Below, one piece after another: positions 12,735-22,072 of a DNA stretch of 64,000 nt. Position numbers and translations under genes: made by a program. Origin of the DNA: Phoenix dactylifera. Taxonomy: Eukaryota; Streptophyta; Magnoliopsida; Arecales; Arecaceae. Position 1 is the first letter of the stretch; each line of letters begins with the position of its first letter. The stretch lies in the NCBI RefSeq assembly GCF_009389715.1, contig NC_052393.1, positions 5,332,001-5,396,000 on the forward strand, in the 5' to 3' direction. The notes beneath the pieces are model-generated. The model was not told where the DNA came from. It did not search any database and saw only the letters and a program-made list of their open reading frames with translations.

Positions 12735-13234
12735 GGGTGGTTCTATATACACCCCCCCTATTGCTCAGGACACCCCCCAAAAATTAAAAAAAAATTAAAT
12801 ACTCTCTACACCCCCCCCATTTGCTAAGGACACCCCTAAAAAATTAAAAATTCCTAAATTACCCCCCACCCTCCCCACCCCCTCACCTAAATTGCTCTCT
12901 ACACCCCCCAAACCCCCCCCACCCCGCTCTTCCCCTCCAAAACACCCGCCGGCTTCTCCCTTCCGCCCAAAAAACCTCGCCTCAAGCACCTCGCCGGCGG
13001 CCAAACCCCCTCCGTCTCCCTTTGAACTGTTCCGCCCAAAGCACCTCGGCAACGCCCAAAACCCCCCCGTTCCCCCTTCTCCCTCTCGTCGCCGGCATTC
13101 TCCCGATCTCCGACCACCTCGCCGGCTTCTCCCGGAACCACCTCCCCGGCCATCTCCCGAGCAACGAGCACCTCGCCGGCGCCTCCACGACCACCTCGAG
13201 GTAGCTCCCCCCCCCCCCGGCATTTTTTTTTTTT

Positions 13235-13490
13235 CACGGTTCGTGCTCCGTTCGGCACTGGATCGCCGAACAAAAGGTTTCTGTTCGGCTGAACAGTGCC
13301 GAACAGAAGCCTTCTGTTCGGCAACCCTCAACCGAACAGAAGCCTTCTGAAGGCTTCTGGCACTGTGCAGCCGAACAGAAGGCTTCTGTTCGGTTGAGGG
13401 TTGCCGAACAGAAGGCTTCTGTTCGGCACTGTTCAGCCGAACAGAAGCCTTTTGTTCGGCGATCCAGTGCCGAACGGAGCACGAACCGTG
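13235..13490. repeat. Palindromic array in element A (near-perfect giant inverted repeat)
   Basis: Runs of a GCCGAACAGAAG/CTTCTGTTCGGC palindrome in both orientations. The outer limits are mirror images, CACGGTTCGTGCTCCG on the left and its reverse complement on the right, so the whole 256 bp folds into one long hairpin. It appears to be the left and right subterminal arrays of an autonomous element joined by internal deletion. Confidence 0.85.
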
Positions 13491-13526
13491 AAAAAAAAAA
13501 ATTTCGAAACAAGGTGGAACACGTAC

Positions 13527-13571
13527 CTTTGCGGCCGATTCTTCGTCCCAAATCACTAGTTGCTTGTCCAT
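13527..13571 (-). pseudogene. Transposase exon 1 copy kept in element A
   Basis: The minus strand encodes MDKQLVIWDEESAAK followed by the donor GTACGT, identical in protein to exon 1 of the transposase in element C (14777-14821). The rest of the gene is missing. The exon and its flanking leader point towards the PMK gene, which is on the same strand 1.3 kb downstream. A TE-initiated transcript could therefore run or splice into PMK. Joining to PMK exon 2 would be out of frame. Confidence 0.8.
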
Positions 13572-14096
13572 GCTTCGAATGAGGCTTAAATCTCCTTCAA
13601 AGATCGCCTAAACGATGTAAATGGATCGAGGGGTTTAAGGGGGGTTTGAGGGGTGTTTTTTTTTTTGCTTTTCAAAACGAAACGGAGGAGGAGGAAGGGG
13701 GGGTGTACTAAGAAAATTTCAAGGGCAATATGGTAATTACACTAAAGGTTAGTTTGGGTATTTTTTTTTGGTTTTTGGGGGGTGTCCTTAGCAATAGGGG
13801 GGGTAGTTCTATATACACCCCCCCTCAGGACACCCCCAAAAACCAAAAAAAAAAAACCCAAACTAACCTTTAGTGTAATTACCATATTGCCCTTGAAATT
13901 TTCTCATACACCCCCCCTTCCTCCTCCTCCGTTTCGTTTTGAAAAGAAAAAAAAAAACACCCCTCAAACCCCCCTTAAACCCCTCCTCCCCCGTTCCCCC
14001 TTCTCCCTCTCGTCGCCGGCATTCTCCCGATCTCCGACCACCTCGCCGGCTTCTCCCGGAACCACCTCGCCGGCTTCTCCCGAAATTTTTTTTTTT

Positions 14097-14308
14097 CACG
14101 GTTCGTGCTCCGTTCGGCACTGGATCGCCGAACAAAAGGCTTCTGTTCGGCTGAACAGTGCCGAACAGAAGCCTTCTGTTCGGCAACCCTCAACCGAACA
14201 GATCTGTTCGGCTGCACAGTGCCGAACAGAAGGCTTCTGTCCGGCACTGTTCAGCCGAACAGAAGCCTTTTGTTCGGCGATACAGTGCCGAACGGAGCAC
14301 GAACCGTG
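14097..14308. repeat. Palindromic array in element B
   Basis: Same family of GCCGAACAGAAG/CTTCTGTTCGGC palindromes as in A and C. The mirrored outer flanks CACGGTTCGTGCTCCG give a hairpin of about 210 bp, with a short central disruption near 14200. Confidence 0.85.
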
Positions 14309-14776
14309 AAAAAAAAAATTTCGGGAGAAGCCGGCGAGGTGGTTCCGGAAGAAGCCGGCGAGGTGGTCGGAGATCGGGAGAATGCCGGCGACGAGAGGGA
14401 GAAGGGGGAACGGGGGGTTTTGGGCGTTGGCGAGGTGTTTTGGAGGGGAAGAGTGGGGTGGGGGGGGGTTTGGGGGGTGTAGAGAGCAATTTAGGTGAGG
14501 GGGTGGGGAGGGTGGGGGGTAGTTCTAAATACACCCCCCCGATTGCTCAGGACACCCCCCAAAAACCAAAAAAAAATACCCAAACTAACCTTTAGTGTAA
14601 TTACCATATTGCCCTTGAAATTTTCTCAGTACACCCCCCTTCCTCCTCCTCCGTCTCCTCCTCCGTTTCGTTTTGAAAAGGAAAAAAAAAACCACCCCTC
14701 AAACCCCCCTTAAACCCCTCGATCCATTTACATCGTTTAGGCGATCTTTGAAGGAGATTTAAGCCCCATTCGAAGC

Positions 14777-17700
14777 ATGGACAAGCAACTAGTGATTTGG
14801 GACGAAGAATCGGCCGCAAAGGTACGTGTTCCACCTTGTTTCGAAAGTTTTTTTTTTTCACGGTTCGTGCTCCGTTCGGCACTGGATCGCCGAACAAAAG
14901 GCTTCTGTTCGGCTGCACAGTGCCGAACAGAAGCCTTCTGTTCGGCAACGCTCTACCGAACAGAAGGCTTCTGTTCGGCTGCACAGTGCCGAACATAAGG
15001 CTTCTGTCCGGCACACTGCAGCCGAACAGAAGGCTTCTGTTCGGCACTCTGCAGCCGAACAGAAGCCTTCTCGTGCCAAATCGCGTGCCGTGCTGAATTT
15101 TGTGCCGAACAGATCCTCTGATTCATCAATTCTTGGTGATAAATTATTTTATATGTAGGGCTATGCTACAACCGAATCGAGTATAATTGGATCAGAATTT
15201 GTACTGGATTACACAAGCGAATTTACAACTTACGAGGTATTATAATATATTGTGCAATTTTGTATTAGTTTAGCGAGCTATTTTTACAACTGTGTACTTA
15301 TATAAATTGTTTAATGTATAGATCTTCAAGAGTAGAGAGGACTTGTGTAATTGGTGTCGTGAAGCTGGGAGGCGAAATGGTTTTGTTGTTGTAATCAAAT
15401 CATCCGATGCAGGTACCATTTCTAAGAAACCCAGAATTACGTTAGGTTGTGAGAGGGGTGGGACGTACCGAACCACAAAAGAAAAGCGAATAAAGACTGC
15501 CTGTGGGACAAAGAAGTGTGGATGCCCTTTTGCATTAAGAGGAAAGAAATTGGATACTGCGGATGATTGGATATTACTGGTCGTATGTGGAGTGCATAAT
15601 CATCCCGCTGCAGAGAATCTGGAGGGGCACTCATATGCAGGGAGATTATCTGAGCAGGAGACGGAATTGTTAGTGGATATGTCGAAGAGTTTGGTTCGTC
15701 CAAAGGACATATTATCCACATTGAAGGAAAGAGATGCCCTCAATGTTACGACTATCAAGACTATCTACAATGTACGTCAACGGTTTAAGGTTGCAGAGAA
15801 AGCCGGGAGGTCTGAAATGCAACATCTATTAGGTAAATTATCAGAGGCTAAATATATTGAGTGGCATAGGAATTGTACTAATACGGATGTTGTGCATGAC
15901 TTATTTTGGGCACACCCTGGCAGCATTGATTTGTTCCGTGCATTTCCCCGTGTGTTGATAATGGATTGCACGTACAAGACGAATAGGTATCGTCTTCCGC
16001 TCTTAGAGATTGTGGGGGTGACATCTACTGACATGACATTTTCAGTTGCTTTTGTATACTTAAATTCTGAGGGGGAAGAAAGCTATACTTGGGCATTAGA
16101 GAGATTGCGCAGTGTCATAGCTGATGATGTTTTGCCTGAGTTGATTGTTACAGATAGAGACTTGGCTTTGATGAATGCAATTCATAGAGTATTTCCTACT
16201 GCTAGACATTTATTATGTAGATGGCATATTAGTAGGAATGTTTTGGCCAAGTGCAAAAAATTTTTCGAATTGAAGGAGAAATGGGATAAATTTATTATGA
16301 GTTGGAATGTACTAGTGCTGTCCTCCACGGAAGACGAGTATAATGATCGCTGGAGTGCACTGCAGAGAGAGTTCGGTACCTATCCAGATGCACTACAGTA
16401 TGTGTCAGATACTTGGCTGAGCAAATACAAGGAAAGATTTGTTGCGGCGTGGACTGATACATGCAGGCACTACGGAAATGTGACGACAAATAGGTATCAC
16501 AAATAAAGACTCATTTAAATTTAATTTGCCTCAATTCTTATATCTAACTTTCATTTGTTTACTAGGGTCGAGAGTGCACATGCAAAGCTCAAAAAGCAGC
16601 TTGGATCAAGCCAAGGAAGTTTCGAGTCATCTTGGACTAGAATACATGGATTGATTGAGTTGCAGCACAGCTCCGTTAAAGCCTCATTGGAGAAGAGTTT
16701 ATTGGTAGTGCAGCACAACTTCAAGCCAGCTGAATTCAAAGAGTTGCGAGGTTTCATATCTATAAGTGCGTTAAATCATGTCCTCGCCCAATCGAAACGA
16801 GCCAATTCAGTTGGGTTTGATGATTCAAATTGTGGGTGCGCTATTCGACGCACACATGGTATACCATGTGCTCACCAGATTGCGCGGTACAGGGTGGAAG
16901 GTCGGCCCATTCCTCTCGACTGCATAGATCCTCATTGGAGGAAACTTGATATTCTGCTTACCCCCCCCGTGCAGCCAATTCAGTTGAGTTGTGATGCAGA
17001 GTTAGATTTGATTGCGCTACGATTCAAGAAGTTAGATGGGGCTTCTCAATTGCAGATGATCAAGAAGTTACGAGAGATTGCAAGTCCAGATAGTACACCT
17101 CTTTTAGAGCCTGCAAAACGGAAGACCGGTTCACGTGGGCGCGCTTCACTGAAGGTTGATACGTCTACTCGACGTGACCCGTCTGCGTTTGAGTTGGTTC
17201 TATCTGGACAGGATAGTTATTCACCTGGTGTTGAGAAAGTTACCATCCGCAATCCATCTACTCAGATTCAAAAGAGACGGCCCAAGCAAAAGGTAAGTAC
17301 CAAATATTTATTTCCTTACAATAGGTATCACAACGTCTACGGGACGGTCCGTGCCGTGCCGGTATGTCATGTGCCGATACGGGACATGTCGGGACGTGCC
17401 GTGCCGAGATGTGCCGATACGGGACATGTCGGGACGTGCCGTGCCGAGATGTGCCGATACGGGATGTGCCGTGCCGAGATGTGCCGATACGGGATGTGCC
17501 GTGCCGAGATGTGCCGATACGGGACATGTTCTGCCATTGTTACATATTTTCTATCATTTGATATTATTTGCAGATTTTTCGTACTAGAGCCCAGTCACAT
17601 ACGCCCATTATCTATATTGATGCTATTCCTTCTGCCTTGAGACCATACATCCAGCATATCAAGGATGTAAAAGCTGATGGGAATTGCGGATTTAGGGCAA

Positions 17701-18317
17701 TAGCTGACTTACTGGGATTTGGAGAAGATGACTGGGTGCGTGTTAGGAAGGATTTATTGCAAGAGTTGCAATGTCATTCGGACCACTATCGCACATTATA
17801 TGGTGTGGAAGGGACGATTGCTGAGATCACTCATGCATTATCATATTATGATGATTGTCCACCATATGACAGATGGATGACTATGCCGGACATGGGTCAT
17901 CTTATAGCATCCTGCTATAATGTTGTCCTATACCATCTCTCGTTGCAACAATGTCTGACCTTCCTACCTCTCCGTTCTGTGCCAGTATCTCTTCTATCCC
18001 GCAAAGATATCGCTATCGGATTCGTAAATGGAAATCATTTTGTTGAGGTACTACGTTCACAACACTTGCGAATATTTAATTTTGCTTATTTAATTTTGCT
18101 TATTTATAATTTTGTAGCTATTAATATTTTCTTATTTCTAATTTTGAAGGTGTTCTTGTTGCCGGGACATCCCGTTCCGCCAGTAGCGACCAACTGGCGA
18201 AAATATCATCTTCCTTGTGCTACCGGATGGGAAAATTCATATGAAGCACGGATTCAACAGTTCAAAGAGAGCATCTCACCTAATGTTATAATTAGCGAGA
18301 CAGTAGAGTTAGATTGA
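14777..18317 (+). CDS. MULE transposase fused to an OTU cysteine protease domain
   Basis: Six exons: 14777-14821, 15159-15236, 15322-16493, 16566-17292, 17574-18047, 18150-18317. All are GT-AG and in phase, giving 887 residues. A FAR1-like zinc finger region is at about 102-135 (Cys 102, 107, 109; His 133, 135). The MULE DDE transposase core follows, with MDCTYKTNRY (Asp about 256) and VTDRDLALM (Asp about 319), then the LCRWH motif. A SWIM zinc finger follows (Cys 521, 523, 533, His 535; CGCAIRRTHGIPCAH). The C-terminal third is an OTU deubiquitinase-type domain with DGNCGFRA (Asp 709, Cys 712) and NHFVE (His 829). Similar OTU-bearing MULE proteins are known in plants, often mis-annotated. 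Intron 1 holds the palindromic array and intron 4 a minisatellite. No internal stop or frameshift was found. It should excise and insert elements with these ends, including A and B. Confidence 0.92.
14859..15115. repeat. Left subterminal palindromic array of element C (in transposase intron 1)
   Basis: About eight half-palindromes of the GCCGAACAGAAG/CTTCTGTTCGGC family, spaced about 48 bp and often linked by TGCACAGT. It starts CACGGTTCGTGCTCCG and ends CCGTGCTGAATTTTGTGCCG. Both borders reappear inverted in the right array, so the arrays are subterminal inverted repeats. The array lies wholly inside intron 1 of the transposase gene. Confidence 0.85.
17340..17530. repeat. CpG-rich minisatellite in transposase intron 4
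   Basis: Tandem units of about 30-40 bp built from GTGCCGAGATGTGCCGATAC and CGGGACATGTCGGGACGTGC. Five or so copies end at the spacer before exon 5. The units are rich in CG and in short palindromes. They are unrelated to the CTTCTGTTCGGC arrays except for the shared GTGCCG core. Confidence 0.8.
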
Positions 18318-18344
18318 TTATTTATATATGTACAATTTTTGAAA
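18298..18344 (+). repeat. 47-bp direct repeat, left copy
   Basis: Includes the last codons and stop of the transposase (TVELD*) and the start of its 3' region. It recurs at 18820-18866 with one mismatch. The two copies bracket the captured DRM and AGO fragments at a distance of 522 bp, which suggests the fragments entered during repair of a break at this point. Confidence 0.9.
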
Positions 18345-18570
18345 GTTGTAAATTTTTTGGGGCTCTTAGAGTCATGTACTGTGAAACTCCATCATCAGCT
18401 GGGAATACATATAACGACTGTTGTTTCCGTTGAGATTTCAGATGTAAACAGAAACATACTTAAGAGCTGGTGGGAGCAAACAAATCAAACAGGGGAACTA
18501 ATAGACCTTTCTGATGTACAAGAACTTAACGGTGACAAGCTTGAGCAGATGATTAACACATTTGTTGGAA
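18345..18570 (+). pseudogene. Captured DRM-type de novo DNA methyltransferase fragment
   Basis: A stop-free stretch of about 75 codons. It contains TTVVSVEISDVNRNILKSWW, EQTNQTGELIDLSDVQ and LNGDKLEQMI, which I recognise as the region after SAM motif I of plant DRM2-type methyltransferases. These deposit CHH methylation guided by siRNAs. The SAM-loop motif (FSGIGG-like in active DRM) is replaced by LLESCTV, and the fragment stops before the PCN catalytic loop, so no enzyme can be made from it. It lies in sense relative to the transposase gene, directly after its stop codon. The open frame suggests recent capture. Confidence 0.85.
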
Positions 18571-18592
18571 AAGAGGGCTCTGTGATGTTCTT

Positions 18593-18796
18593 GGTTAAGA
18601 GGTTAATCGGCTGCCCTCTCCTTGCAAGGCCAGGTCTTGCCACTGGCACCCTCTTAGGCTTTGCTGCCTTTTTTGGAGGGAAACTTTGTCCAGGGTCAGC
18701 TTTGATTGGAACAACATTTGGAGGTACCTCAGGGGGAGGTGGAGGCAGAACATCAGTCGTATCAGATTCAGGGTCAAACCCCCCACGGGACTCCAT
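18593..18796 (-). pseudogene. Captured N-terminus of an AGO4-clade Argonaute
   Basis: Read on the minus strand: 68 codons starting at an ATG (18796), with MESRGGF, then LPPPPPEVPPNVVPIKAD and RVPVARPGLARRGQPINLL. The proline run followed by PPNVVPIKA and the ARxGxxxRGQ-I-LLT sequence is characteristic of the AGO4/AGO6/AGO16 N-terminal region. AGO4-clade proteins bind 24-nt siRNAs and recruit DRM2. Homology ends after LLT, where NHFKV is normally found. A second copy of the PPPPPE-coding stretch lies upstream of the ATG (about 18797-18819). Only N-terminal sequence is present, so no PAZ, MID or PIWI function. It is antisense to the transposase and sense to the PMD gene. Confidence 0.82.
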
Positions 18797-18819
18797 CTCC
18801 TCAGGGGGAGGTGGAGGCA

Positions 18820-18866
18820 AGACAGTAGAGTTAGATTGATTGTTTATATATGTACAATTTTTGAAA
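18820..18866 (+). repeat. 47-bp direct repeat, right copy
   Basis: Second copy of 18298-18344 (one A/G mismatch). It again supplies TVELD and a stop, and by chance closes the plus-strand frame that runs through the captured fragments. The following GAAACTCCATCATCA also occurs at 18382-18396, inside the captured block. Confidence 0.9.
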
Positions 18867-19050
18867 CTCCATCATCAATATAAATCAAAAAATATCTGTC
18901 TTCGCATTGTTAGATTGATTGTTATGTGCACTGTTATATTTGTGTAAAATAGAACGGGCCAGGCTTTACAAAGATTACACGTAAATGTACCAAAAATATA
19001 TATTTTTCATTAATATCAAAGGCTTTACAAAGATTACAAAGGCTCCATCA

Positions 19051-20965
19051 TCAATCCCTATGACGCCATCGTCGACGCGTGTACTGCTGTACGTCCGAAT
19101 GAGAGGGTCCTGGATCCGAATGAGAGGGTGATGTACTCGGGCCAGGCTCATCACCCAGAAGTACCTGATGCATCTGAGAAATAGCATTATATAGGTGCCC
19201 GGTACCTAGTGACGTAGCCTCTGAGGGACCCATCCGTACAATGTCGGTACTGATACCGAGTGCAGCTGCATTACGCCGCCGGTGCATGTCAGCATCATCA
19301 TGACCTCCCCTAGCTCCAGAATGAGTACTCGAGCGCAGATGAGGAGGCTGAACTGCAACGTGCGTGATACGGAGATACCACTCCATGTATCCCGGTACGC
19401 TGTCTGATGGCCGGGTAACTGGGTGGCTCCTGCTCGCCTGGCTCAGCACGTGGTCCTCCCACCGCTCCCAAAGCTGATCCATATAGGAGTAATGTATCCG
19501 GTACGAGCCTGCTGTGGAACCTCTGTTGGCTCGCGTAGGGGCTAGTGGCGCTCGAGGGATGGTCTGAATACGACCAAACTGTCTAAGAACCCTTTCTGGA
19601 TGATAGGGTTCTACGATATCAAGGCACTTGATGGAGCCACTAAAAAATGCGACGGGTATATATGGGCGATCTCCCCGAAGCCGATGATGGGGATCCCAAA
19701 TAACCTGTAAAACAAAAGGTCCATTTCAGTTTTATACTATATCGCATATTAAATGTACTGACAAACATAAGCAAATGGTAATATGATACGTACCTCATCG
19801 ATGCTCAAAAGGTCCAATGACTCACGTAGAACCACTAAATGGTCCATCGTGGTACGGGATGGAGTACCGGGCATCCAGCGGTGCACGCGGGGACTGGCAT
19901 CAGTATACTCGAGCGACGGGTGAGGACTGAGTGCTGGAAAATGCTCATAAATCCATGCCTGCAGAAGCGTCATATAACCACTGATCTGTCTCACTGATGA
20001 CCTCGACGCAATCCCCAACTGCCGATACAAATATGCTAAGGCAGCTGTACCCCAGGCATATGTGCTCACCCTATCCAGATCCCGCAGTAAACACAGATAC
20101 GCTATAGGCACCCTGGTCCCACTCTTATCAGCAAAGAGTGTGCAGCCTAACAAAAATAACAAATAGGCTCGTGCTGCACACTCTATCCTCTGCTGCCTGT
20201 CTCTATCAGATACAGAGTGAAACTGAGTCCTCAGCCACTCCATCCTCACAGACTGACCGCGCGATGACAGTACCTCCTGACGCGCGTCTCCAGCTGACAC
20301 CCCCAACAACTCCACAAGTAGCTCCTCAGCATCCCGATCACTCATCCTCTCAGGAGAAACTGATACTGAGGAACCTGCGACAGGAATCCCTAAAATGGCG
20401 GATACATCATCCAACGTGATAGTGATCTCGCCAAATGGTATATGGAAGGTGTTCGTCTCGGGCTGCCATCTCTCTACGAAGCCCGAAATCAGAATCTTAT
20501 CGATGAATCGATAAGAGCACTGTACTAACTCTACGAGGCCCGACTGCCTCAATAGTGCTCTGAACCTGGTATTTGGTTGGTTTGAAGACCACCACTTCCA
20601 TTCACCAACCTTGGCAGTATGGTTCATGCACTTTAGTGGAGCTCGTTCCTGTAATATAAATGTATAATTACTACTACTTTATAAAACATCAATAAACAAA
20701 ATATAATGCTATAACAAATAAACAATACCTGTTGCCTCCAGATGGAAGCTGCTATATGCGTCCTGAAACTGATCAGGACGGACTCATCCTCTGGACCTCC
20801 TGGACATGGTCCAACGGACTCATCGTCTTCGCCCCTAGCGGGCATATCATCATGCTCTGACTCAGGAGAGTCCGATGGCATATGAGCAGGCTCGGGAGAA
20901 GCAATCCTAGCACGACGTCTCCTAGCTGACGCCGTAGGTCTAACTCTGGCGGGACGGGGATCCAT
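19051..20965 (-). CDS. Plant mobile domain (PMD, MAIN-like) protein of element C
   Basis: Three exons on the minus strand: 20965-20729, 20648-19794, 19704-19051. GT-AG borders, in phase, 581 residues. The N-terminus is basic and serine/acid-rich (residues 1-79). A PMD follows, with LKCMNHTAKV, FRALLRQSGLVELV, FHIPFGEITITLDDVSAIL and IPVAYLCLLRDLDRV-like segments, and the C-terminal tail is disordered (ending RRRWRHRD). The PMD family is shared by Arabidopsis MAIN/MAIL proteins, involved in silencing and genome maintenance, and by many MULE and Gypsy elements; its biochemical role is unclear. The gene starts about 65 bp inside the right palindromic array and runs towards the transposase gene. 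Their stop codons are 733 bp apart, with the captured DRM/AGO block between. It has no inactivating mutation. Confidence 0.88.
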
Positions 20966-21029
20966 GTCTGAAAATATAGAAATTCAATGTTAGGCTATAT
21001 CAAAGAAAATAATTCAATTGCATACATAA

Positions 21030-21333
21030 ATGTTCGGCACAAAATTCAGCACGGCACGCACCAGAAGCCTTCTGTTCGGCTGCACAGTGCCGAACAGAAG
21101 GCTTCTGTTCGGCTGCACAGAGCCGAACAGAAGGCTTCTGTTCGGCTGCTCAGAGCCGGACAGAACCATTCTGTTCGGCACTGTGCAGCCGAACAGAAGG
21201 CTTCTGTTTGGCACCGTGCAGCCGAACAGAAGGCTTCTGTTCGGTTGAGTGTTGCCGAACAGAGGGCTTCTGTTCGGCACTGTTCAGCCGAACAGAACCC
21301 TTCTGTTCGGCGATCCAGTGCCGAACGGAGCAC
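21030..21333. repeat. Right subterminal palindromic array of element C
   Basis: About nine GCCGAACAGAAG/CTTCTGTTCGGC palindromes with TGCACAG linkers. It is inverted relative to the left array and shares its two border sequences. It lies between the PMD gene's start and a GC-rich segment leading to the terminus. Confidence 0.85.
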
Positions 21334-21816
21334 TGGAGGCGGGGGGGCGGGGAGCTACCTCGACGTGGTCGTGGAGGCGCCGGCGAGGTGCTCGTTGCTC
21401 GGGAGATGGCCGGGGAGGTGGTTCCGGGAGAATGCCGGCGACGAGAGGGAGAAGGGGAGAATGCCGGCGACGAGAGGGAGAAGGGGGAACGGGGGGGTTT
21501 TGGGCGAGGGAGAAGGGGGAGACGGAGGGGGTTTGGCCGCCGGCGAGGTGCTTGAGGTGCTTGAGGCGAAGTTTTTTGGGCGGAAGGAAGAAGCCGGCTG
21601 GAGTGGAGTTTTGGAGGGGAAGAGCGGGGTTGGGGGGGGTTTGGGGGGTGTAGAGAGCAATTTAGGTGAGGGGGTGGGGAGGGTGAAGGGTAATTTAGGA
21701 TTTTTTATTTTTTTAGGGGTGTCCTTAGCAAATGGGGGGGTGTAGAGAGTATTTAATTTTTTTTTAATTTTTGGGGGGTGTCCTGAGCAATCGGGGGGGT
21801 GTATTTAGAACTACCC
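21334..21816. other. GC-rich right end of element C
   Basis: Purine-rich on the plus strand, with a twice-repeated GCCGGCGACGAGAGGGAGAA near 21434 and 21464, then the terminal inverted repeat. The same GC-rich block occurs in A (about 12905-13220). Long open frames here follow from base composition and are not supported as genes. Confidence 0.6.
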
Positions 21817-22072
21817 GAGGGTGGGGGGTAATTTAGGAATTTTTAATTTTTTAGGGGTGTCCTTAGCAAATGGGGGGGTGTAGAGAGTATTTAATTTTTT
21901 TTTAATTTTTGGGGGGTGTCCTGAGCAATAGGGGGGGTGTATATAGAACCACCCCAATAGGGGGGGTGTATATAGAACCACCCGCGCCTGAATCCCGTGG
22001 ATGTGCGGGAACTGGTGACGAATGTACGCTAAGGGGCCCAATCTTCTGCTACCAAACGACATGTAACTCCTA

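Follow-up and report, generated by a model that had tools for sequence, protein, structure and literature searches.

A young MULE family of the date palm (Phoenix dactylifera) has, almost certainly, captured and amplified pieces of two host genes, DRM and AGO4, and both kinds of carrier, copies with the DRM piece only and copies with DRM and AGO4 together, are multi-copy. The analysis started from a stretch of 64,000 nucleotides (the window, G000:C2:5332001-5396000) that holds a complete element with both pieces, and was extended to the date palm genome (773 Mb in 2391 contigs, of which C1-C18 are the 18 linkage groups). How plant transposons evade RNA-directed DNA methylation (RdDM) has been worked out in few cases so far, and no report of a plant element with pieces of two RdDM genes was found in the open-licence PubMed Central literature, as represented mostly by titles and the beginnings of abstracts. 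Here, one young family occurs within a single genome in three states (empty, DRM-only and AGO4-bearing), with known donors and near-identical copies, and thus offers natural controls for whether captured pieces of silencing genes help an element.

Structure of the element and its captured block

In agreement with the preliminary description of the window, the element is a MULE, as revealed by its MULE-type transposase (PF10551, E = 5.6e-27; PF03101, E = 3.3e-6), its terminal inverted repeats (96.7% identity over 61 bp) and its 9-bp TSD. Its features are listed below in window positions.

14508-14516, no strand: left 9-bp TSD GAGGGTGGG, same as 21817-21825
14517-21816, + strand: complete MULE, 7300 bp, with ends GGGTAGTTCTAAATACACC
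14777-18317, + strand: transposase gene, multi-exon, with FAR1-like and MULE domains and a putative OTU-type exon (Pfam; predicted exons)
17562-18317, + strand: putative OTU-type exon of the transposase gene (Peptidase_C65, E = 0.034, below the cut-off)
18295-18344, + strand: end of the putative OTU exon and 3' UTR of the element, repeated at 18817-18866 with 96% identity
18393-18568, + strand: part of the host DRM gene's last exon, in sense orientation relative to the transposase gene (97.7% to the host gene L010; PDB match)
18563-18595, + strand: piece of the DRM 3' UTR adjoining the DRM exon piece, left by an internal deletion (matches L005 and L011)
18591-18801, - strand: beginning of the first coding exon in host AGO4, including the 5 nt that precede the ATG, in antisense orientation relative to the transposase gene (209/211 to the host gene L060)
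18799-18819, - strand: second copy of a 21-bp AGO4 stretch (other copy 18727-18747), junction slippage
18817-18866, + strand: duplicated element tail, 50 bp, after the AGO4 piece, a repeat of 18295-18344
19051-20965, - strand: PMD (plant mobile domain) gene, convergent with the transposase gene (Pfam)
21817-21825, no strand: right 9-bp TSD GAGGGTGGG, same as 14508-14516

A one-base shift of the TSD register fits the window equally well, and the register chosen is that of the sister copies L049 (C5; the same place as L041) and L050 (C12; the same place as L038), which align with the window element from end to end at 99.1% and 99.5% identity and each possess a 9-bp TSD of their own. When the register was allowed to vary by a few bases, exact 9-bp end repeats were observed in the window, in L049, in L050 and in nine of 17 DRM-only copies, and in the other eight DRM-only copies the search for a 9-bp TSD recognised no end pair. 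All coding segments tested have open frames in the window and L049; the same holds for L050 except for one transposase segment that aligns over 364 of 391 residues. PF10536 matched the PMD gene on two segments (E = 7.7e-58 and 2e-10). The OTU label of exon 17562-18317 is tentative, being given from a motif that we take to be of this type, beside the weak Pfam score.

MULE end sequences are present on both sides of the element (window 12735-14516 and 21820-21985); it is inserted into, or beside, more copies of its own family. An intron-like part of the transposase gene (window 17340-17530) holds a minisatellite with units of ~30 bp (GTGCCGATACGGGA...), the number of which differs among copies. 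Elsewhere in the genome, four 5' ends of the family that lie in one orientation at a spacing of ~900 bp (G000:C7:5071730-5074469) suggest a tandem array of short elements.

The two genes of the element converge, and the block is located between their 3' ends. It had been described as lying directly after the transposase stop codon, and a stop codon (18315-18317), the one that ends the putative OTU exon, does precede it; the DRM homology, however, starts only 76 bp later. At their junction, the DRM 3' UTR and the AGO4 piece have TTGGT in common, and in L033 and L036 the duplicated tail extends for 42 bp more before the sequence continues as in an empty copy. Taken together, the joints have the appearance expected after repair synthesis with template switching.

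Host donors of the DRM and AGO4 pieces

The preliminary description had proposed a DRM fragment in sense and an AGO4 fragment in antisense, and had suggested a search for their donors. This search traced both pieces to host genes of RdDM type that are located elsewhere in the genome. The ORF at 18318-18839 (+) matched solved DRM structures (NtDRM 4onq, E = 1e-19; AtDRM2, E = 6.5e-16), and its host donor is L010 (G000:C1:6482500-6492400; C1:6487159), a gene that ends in a 414-aa ORF with PF00145. At least one host gene matches this DRM region when L011 and the MULE copies are set aside; since a single host DRM gene was seen, as a lower bound, lowering DRM would matter. The window and host DRM share 108 perfect 21-mers and 102 perfect 24-mers, with a longest exact run of 97 nt. 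Compared with the host gene over 395 bp, L009 diverges by 0.8% in its DRM piece.

An internal deletion affects the DRM piece in the window and in the 20 fetched copies of the window form, with further loss in three of these 20. Both the left flank and the DRM part are retained at 17 of the 20 AGO4-bearing places fetched; L032 has a different upstream sequence, and part of DRM is gone from L040 and L047. In 16 of the 17 fetched DRM-only copies, a 9-bp patch, which is also present in the element's PMD region, creates an in-frame TAG and thus points away from a role as a DRM protein. A second DRM-only form, observed in L100 (C1:20378315) and L101 (C3:8954002), has another left joint and is without the TAG patch, so that there has been more than one rearrangement, or capture, of the DRM piece at almost the same spot.

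In L011, a longer, host-colinear DRM piece lies between MULE ends. It looks like a Pack-MULE-like element, and may be either the source of the DRM piece or a sister capture. Host DRM L010 is without ~232 bp of 3' UTR that L011 and the L009-type copies have in common; a tag taken from it was located at 26 places in the genome, none of them in the host DRM gene. Either the reference allele lost the stretch after the capture or the donor was another allele; loss of matching sequence from the target gene would be of interest to an arms-race view. The NCBI protein P0004 (Phoenix dactylifera, DRM1A-like) matches the host DRM gene exactly over residues 1-79, and for its final 17 residues the counterpart is the 3'-UTR stretch, the tag of which is found only in L011 and at element-borne places and not in the host gene.

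The AGO4 donor is the AGO4-clade gene L060 (G000:C1:27567800-27569800; C1:27569051), to which the piece is identical at 209 of 211 positions (99%). At one of the two differences, position 18681, all 20 of the other fetched copies carry the host base, unlike the window. The piece was recognised via the AGO4 protein P0001 (80% identity over 55% of the query) and then via the host gene itself, its PDB search being not significant (best E = 0.65) and its Pfam search returning no match. The window and host AGO4 have 149 perfect 21-mers and 140 perfect 24-mers in common. Two variants, L062 and L063, share the AGO4 joint but differ in how much of DRM they include; the internally deleted copy L061 has AGO4 without DRM. 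A second AGO4-clade gene, L058 (G000:C83:138600-139450), is 84% identical over the captured exon and shares two perfect 21-mers with the block; this paralogue is a built-in control for any siRNA effect.

Copy numbers and states of the family

The block stretch 18576-18822 was found at full length and with 99-100% identity at all 40 places scored (out of 59 candidates; window included), and a chance match is thus ruled out. The genome search with P0001 gave 65 matches, of which six fall on host Argonaute loci and 59 rows on 55 loci (window included). The AGO4 piece occupies these ~55 loci, some of them short or degenerate, with C1-C18 accounting for 29 of the 55. For the main DRM-only form, the left joint was located at exactly 18 places, 11 of them on C1-C18, and the AGO4 stretch is absent from all 17 copies fetched from these places. 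Two DRM-only copies, L027 and L028 (G000:C950, 48 kb apart), have the same outer flank and represent either a single insertion that was duplicated along with the sequence around it or a duplicate in the assembly, so that the 18 places amount to at most 17 insertions. The 26 places with the DRM 3'-UTR tag comprise 12 of the main DRM-only form, 7 that are AGO4-bearing, L011, and 6 other carriers that are without AGO4, L100 and L101 among them being read in sequence; DRM sequence without AGO4 is present at 24 places in all.

The family as a whole has 423 5' ends and 155 copies with the OTU tail. A survey of family copies for the block, as the preliminary description had advised, covered 100 listed copies of these 155: 30 carry AGO4, 12 are of the main DRM-only form, 4 have the DRM 3'-UTR tag, 33 were verified as empty and 21 are left unassigned. 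The block is thereby carried by 46 of the 100 listed OTU-bearing copies, which falls short of most of them. Both fragments match their host genes significantly and the block recurs in many copies, the reverse of the unmatched or solitary block that had been named as evidence against the original proposal. Unplaced contigs may hold allelic duplicates, and these totals may therefore be inflated; near-identical matches to RNA-dependent RNA polymerase (RdRP) on C8 and C242 are a sign of such possible duplicates. Amplified RdRP fragments were themselves considered as a candidate and rejected, the 13 RdRP matches lying at five places and forming no repeated family.

Order and age of the captures

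Over 731 bp of the OTU region, the mean pairwise divergence was 0.84% among empty copies (n = 7, of which 5 are verified; L070 was left out as not alignable, and L068 and L071 because they carry DRM), 0.58% among DRM-only copies (n = 16) and 0.40% among AGO4-bearing copies (n = 13). This order suggests recent, stepwise capture and fits successive expansions. In the tree of the same 731 bp, empty, DRM-only and AGO4-bearing copies are mixed, reflecting either low resolution or exchange between copies, and the tree neither proves nor dates separate lineages; the order of capture thus leans on the mean divergence and the joints. From these, empty copies probably acquired DRM first and AGO4 afterwards, all of it recently. 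Simultaneous capture of both genes is disfavoured, because DRM-only copies exist and because AGO4 abuts DRM 3'-UTR sequence at its junction. The earlier claim that one element had captured two partners is hence borne out insofar as both pieces are present in many copies, but they were probably not captured together.

Possible function of the block and alternative explanations

Transposons of this kind are silenced by RdDM, to which the date palm element would be no exception. Counter-defence by siRNAs against host DRM and AGO4 is the mechanism that we judge most likely, with a probability that comes close to even. Under this mechanism, repair synthesis with template switching would have copied DRM first and AGO4 later, as the joints imply, and read-through of the two convergent element genes would generate sense and antisense RNA of the block. 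The resulting double-stranded RNA would be diced into 21-24-nt siRNAs, which could target the mRNAs of host DRM and AGO4 in trans or direct methylation of both genes. RdDM might then be lowered enough to favour the element, as was proposed for TART-A versus nxf2 in flies, and the element's own PMD protein may act alongside. The RdDM type of both donors, the many perfect 21-24-mers that match the host exons and the convergent placement of the block argue for counter-defence. We more tentatively consider it possible that a plant DNA transposon has assembled a multi-part RdDM counter-defence, consisting of a PMD protein and of DRM and AGO4 sequence added successively at its convergent 3' ends. 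As part of this tentative picture, the element's own silencing response would be converted into siRNAs against both host factors, and the element would have spread recently to dozens of copies.

A hairpin or miRNA source of the block was considered and discarded. The region 17500-19600 holds two inverted-repeat pairs of at least 14 nt, one with arms 1208 nt apart and the other a short palindrome in the AGO4 part, and neither is precursor-like. Folding of 18345-18866 was not stronger than that of shuffled sequences on either strand (z of -0.37 and 0.45).

It is quite possible, if somewhat further from an even prospect, that the pieces are neutral passengers, in which case two expressed host genes would have been copied accidentally during gap repair following excision or breakage, and the block would have hitchhiked on lineages already multiplying. 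Capture of gene pieces by MULEs is common, with 1560 genes represented in 2967 rice Pack-MULEs (as cited in the accessible part of PMC11986588), and the short microhomologies, internal slippage and direct repeats at the joints are as expected of repair filler. The DRM piece is present in several rearranged forms and is eroded, with the TAG-creating patch in nearly all fetched DRM-only copies. The comparison of substitution rates with the flanks, as proposed in the preliminary description, gave 8 segregating sites in 203 positions of DRM and 5 in 221 of AGO4, versus 1 in 153 upstream and 7 in 184 downstream, and thus no signal of constraint or purifying selection on the fragments, in a sample of little power (18 sequences, namely the window and 17 of 20 copies, L032, L040 and L047 being dropped because their upstream or DRM part differs). 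What speaks against chance is that both captured genes come from the pathway that silences such elements. With ~50 RdDM genes, by our estimate, among the 28,595 high-confidence genes of the date palm (as given in the accessible part of PMC6794320), a second hit in the pathway would arise by chance in ~0.2% of cases. Moreover, no other captured gene was seen in the parts examined. Apart from the block, no insert of at least 50 bp was seen in those parts of 19 copies that were aligned (17 DRM-only and 2 AGO4-bearing, with the 5' end outside coverage in 7), nor was another captured gene present in the fetched parts of six of six sampled 5' ends without the OTU tag. Of these six, four end within ~110 bp of the stretch that was fetched, outside which lie ~500 bp closer to the 5' end, and two are internally deleted. 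The carriers were found by searching with the DRM and AGO4 fragments, so that the comparison of donor identities is not blind; as many windows were also scanned, the argument from donor identity against neutrality is weakened. Empty copies are dispersed equally to carriers, and the groups are unseparated in the tree. Because so many equally dispersed copies are without the block, the neutral alternative stands, and their abundance (33 verified among the 100 listed, next to 46 carriers) indicates that the block is not needed for multiplying.

Two further explanations appear less probable. It is rather improbable that gene-like sequence, whatever its donors, serves to lower the element's own silencing or to titrate siRNAs, and equally so that, on such terms, the RdDM identity of the pieces would be either incidental or a means of tuning a feedback by which RdDM declines as siRNA levels rise. 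In maize, Pack-TEs have fewer siRNAs and slightly less methylation than fragment-free relatives, and their donor genes have more siRNAs and methylation (according to the accessible parts of PMC8616336). The divergence order would also fit a better recent spread of carriers, but the empty copies multiplied too. We regard it as very improbable indeed that the AGO4-bearing copies encode a short chimeric protein of 142 aa, in which the DRM piece runs into antisense AGO4, with a dominant-negative or other role. This frame is open in 16 of the 18 readable copies (of 21), with an ATG start in 17 of the 18, and NCBI holds a predicted counterpart, P0003. Yet the product would comprise part of the catalytic domain only, followed by antisense sequence; in copies as young as these an open frame says little, the window copy is without the ATG, and the frame is positioned downstream of the transposase frame.

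Comparison with known systems

If the siRNA counter-defence works, the date palm element would work like TART-A and nxf2 with two donors of one pathway. TART-A of Drosophila melanogaster carries nxf2 sequence and makes antisense piRNAs, and its higher copy number goes with lower nxf2 expression (PMC7785250, accessible part). Both are transposons with a captured, multi-copy piece of a host gene from their own silencing pathway, in the date palm of DRM and AGO4, and they are alike, in the model only, in that element-derived small RNAs are proposed to target the donor gene (ibid.). TART-A is a retrotransposon of an animal, with piRNAs and one donor, whereas the window element is a plant MULE with two donors, and its block is present in part of the family only. 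As far as the accessible part of PMC7785250 describes it, the TART-A case is built on small-RNA, degradome and expression evidence, and that of the date palm block on genome sequence.

Among plant systems, miR820 of rice, which resides in CACTA elements, lowers OsDRM2 (PMC3459959, accessible part) and similarly represents a plant DNA transposon with sequence directed against DRM. However, judging from the same part of that source, miR820 is a miRNA gene without AGO4, whereas the date palm block is a captured DRM exon without excess foldback. VANDAL21 with VANC21 is likewise a DNA transposon, with an anti-silencing function such as is proposed here; VANC is an element-encoded protein that acts on copies of its own family, in contrast to captured sequence from a host pathway (PMC8616336, accessible parts). 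The same parts of that source suggest TE-encoded PMD proteins as counter-silencers, with evidence that concerns the host proteins MAIN and MAIL1, and the window element, too, encodes a PMD protein, so that the likeness extends to a suggestion of counter-silencing. With Pack-MULEs and Pack-TYPE elements, as they are portrayed there, the window element has in common MULE ends and TSDs around sharply bounded fragments of host genes. It differs from them in that its transposase segments are open and its block is present in dozens of copies. Because of the open transposase segments, the window element is not a strict Pack-MULE, and L011 fits this description better.
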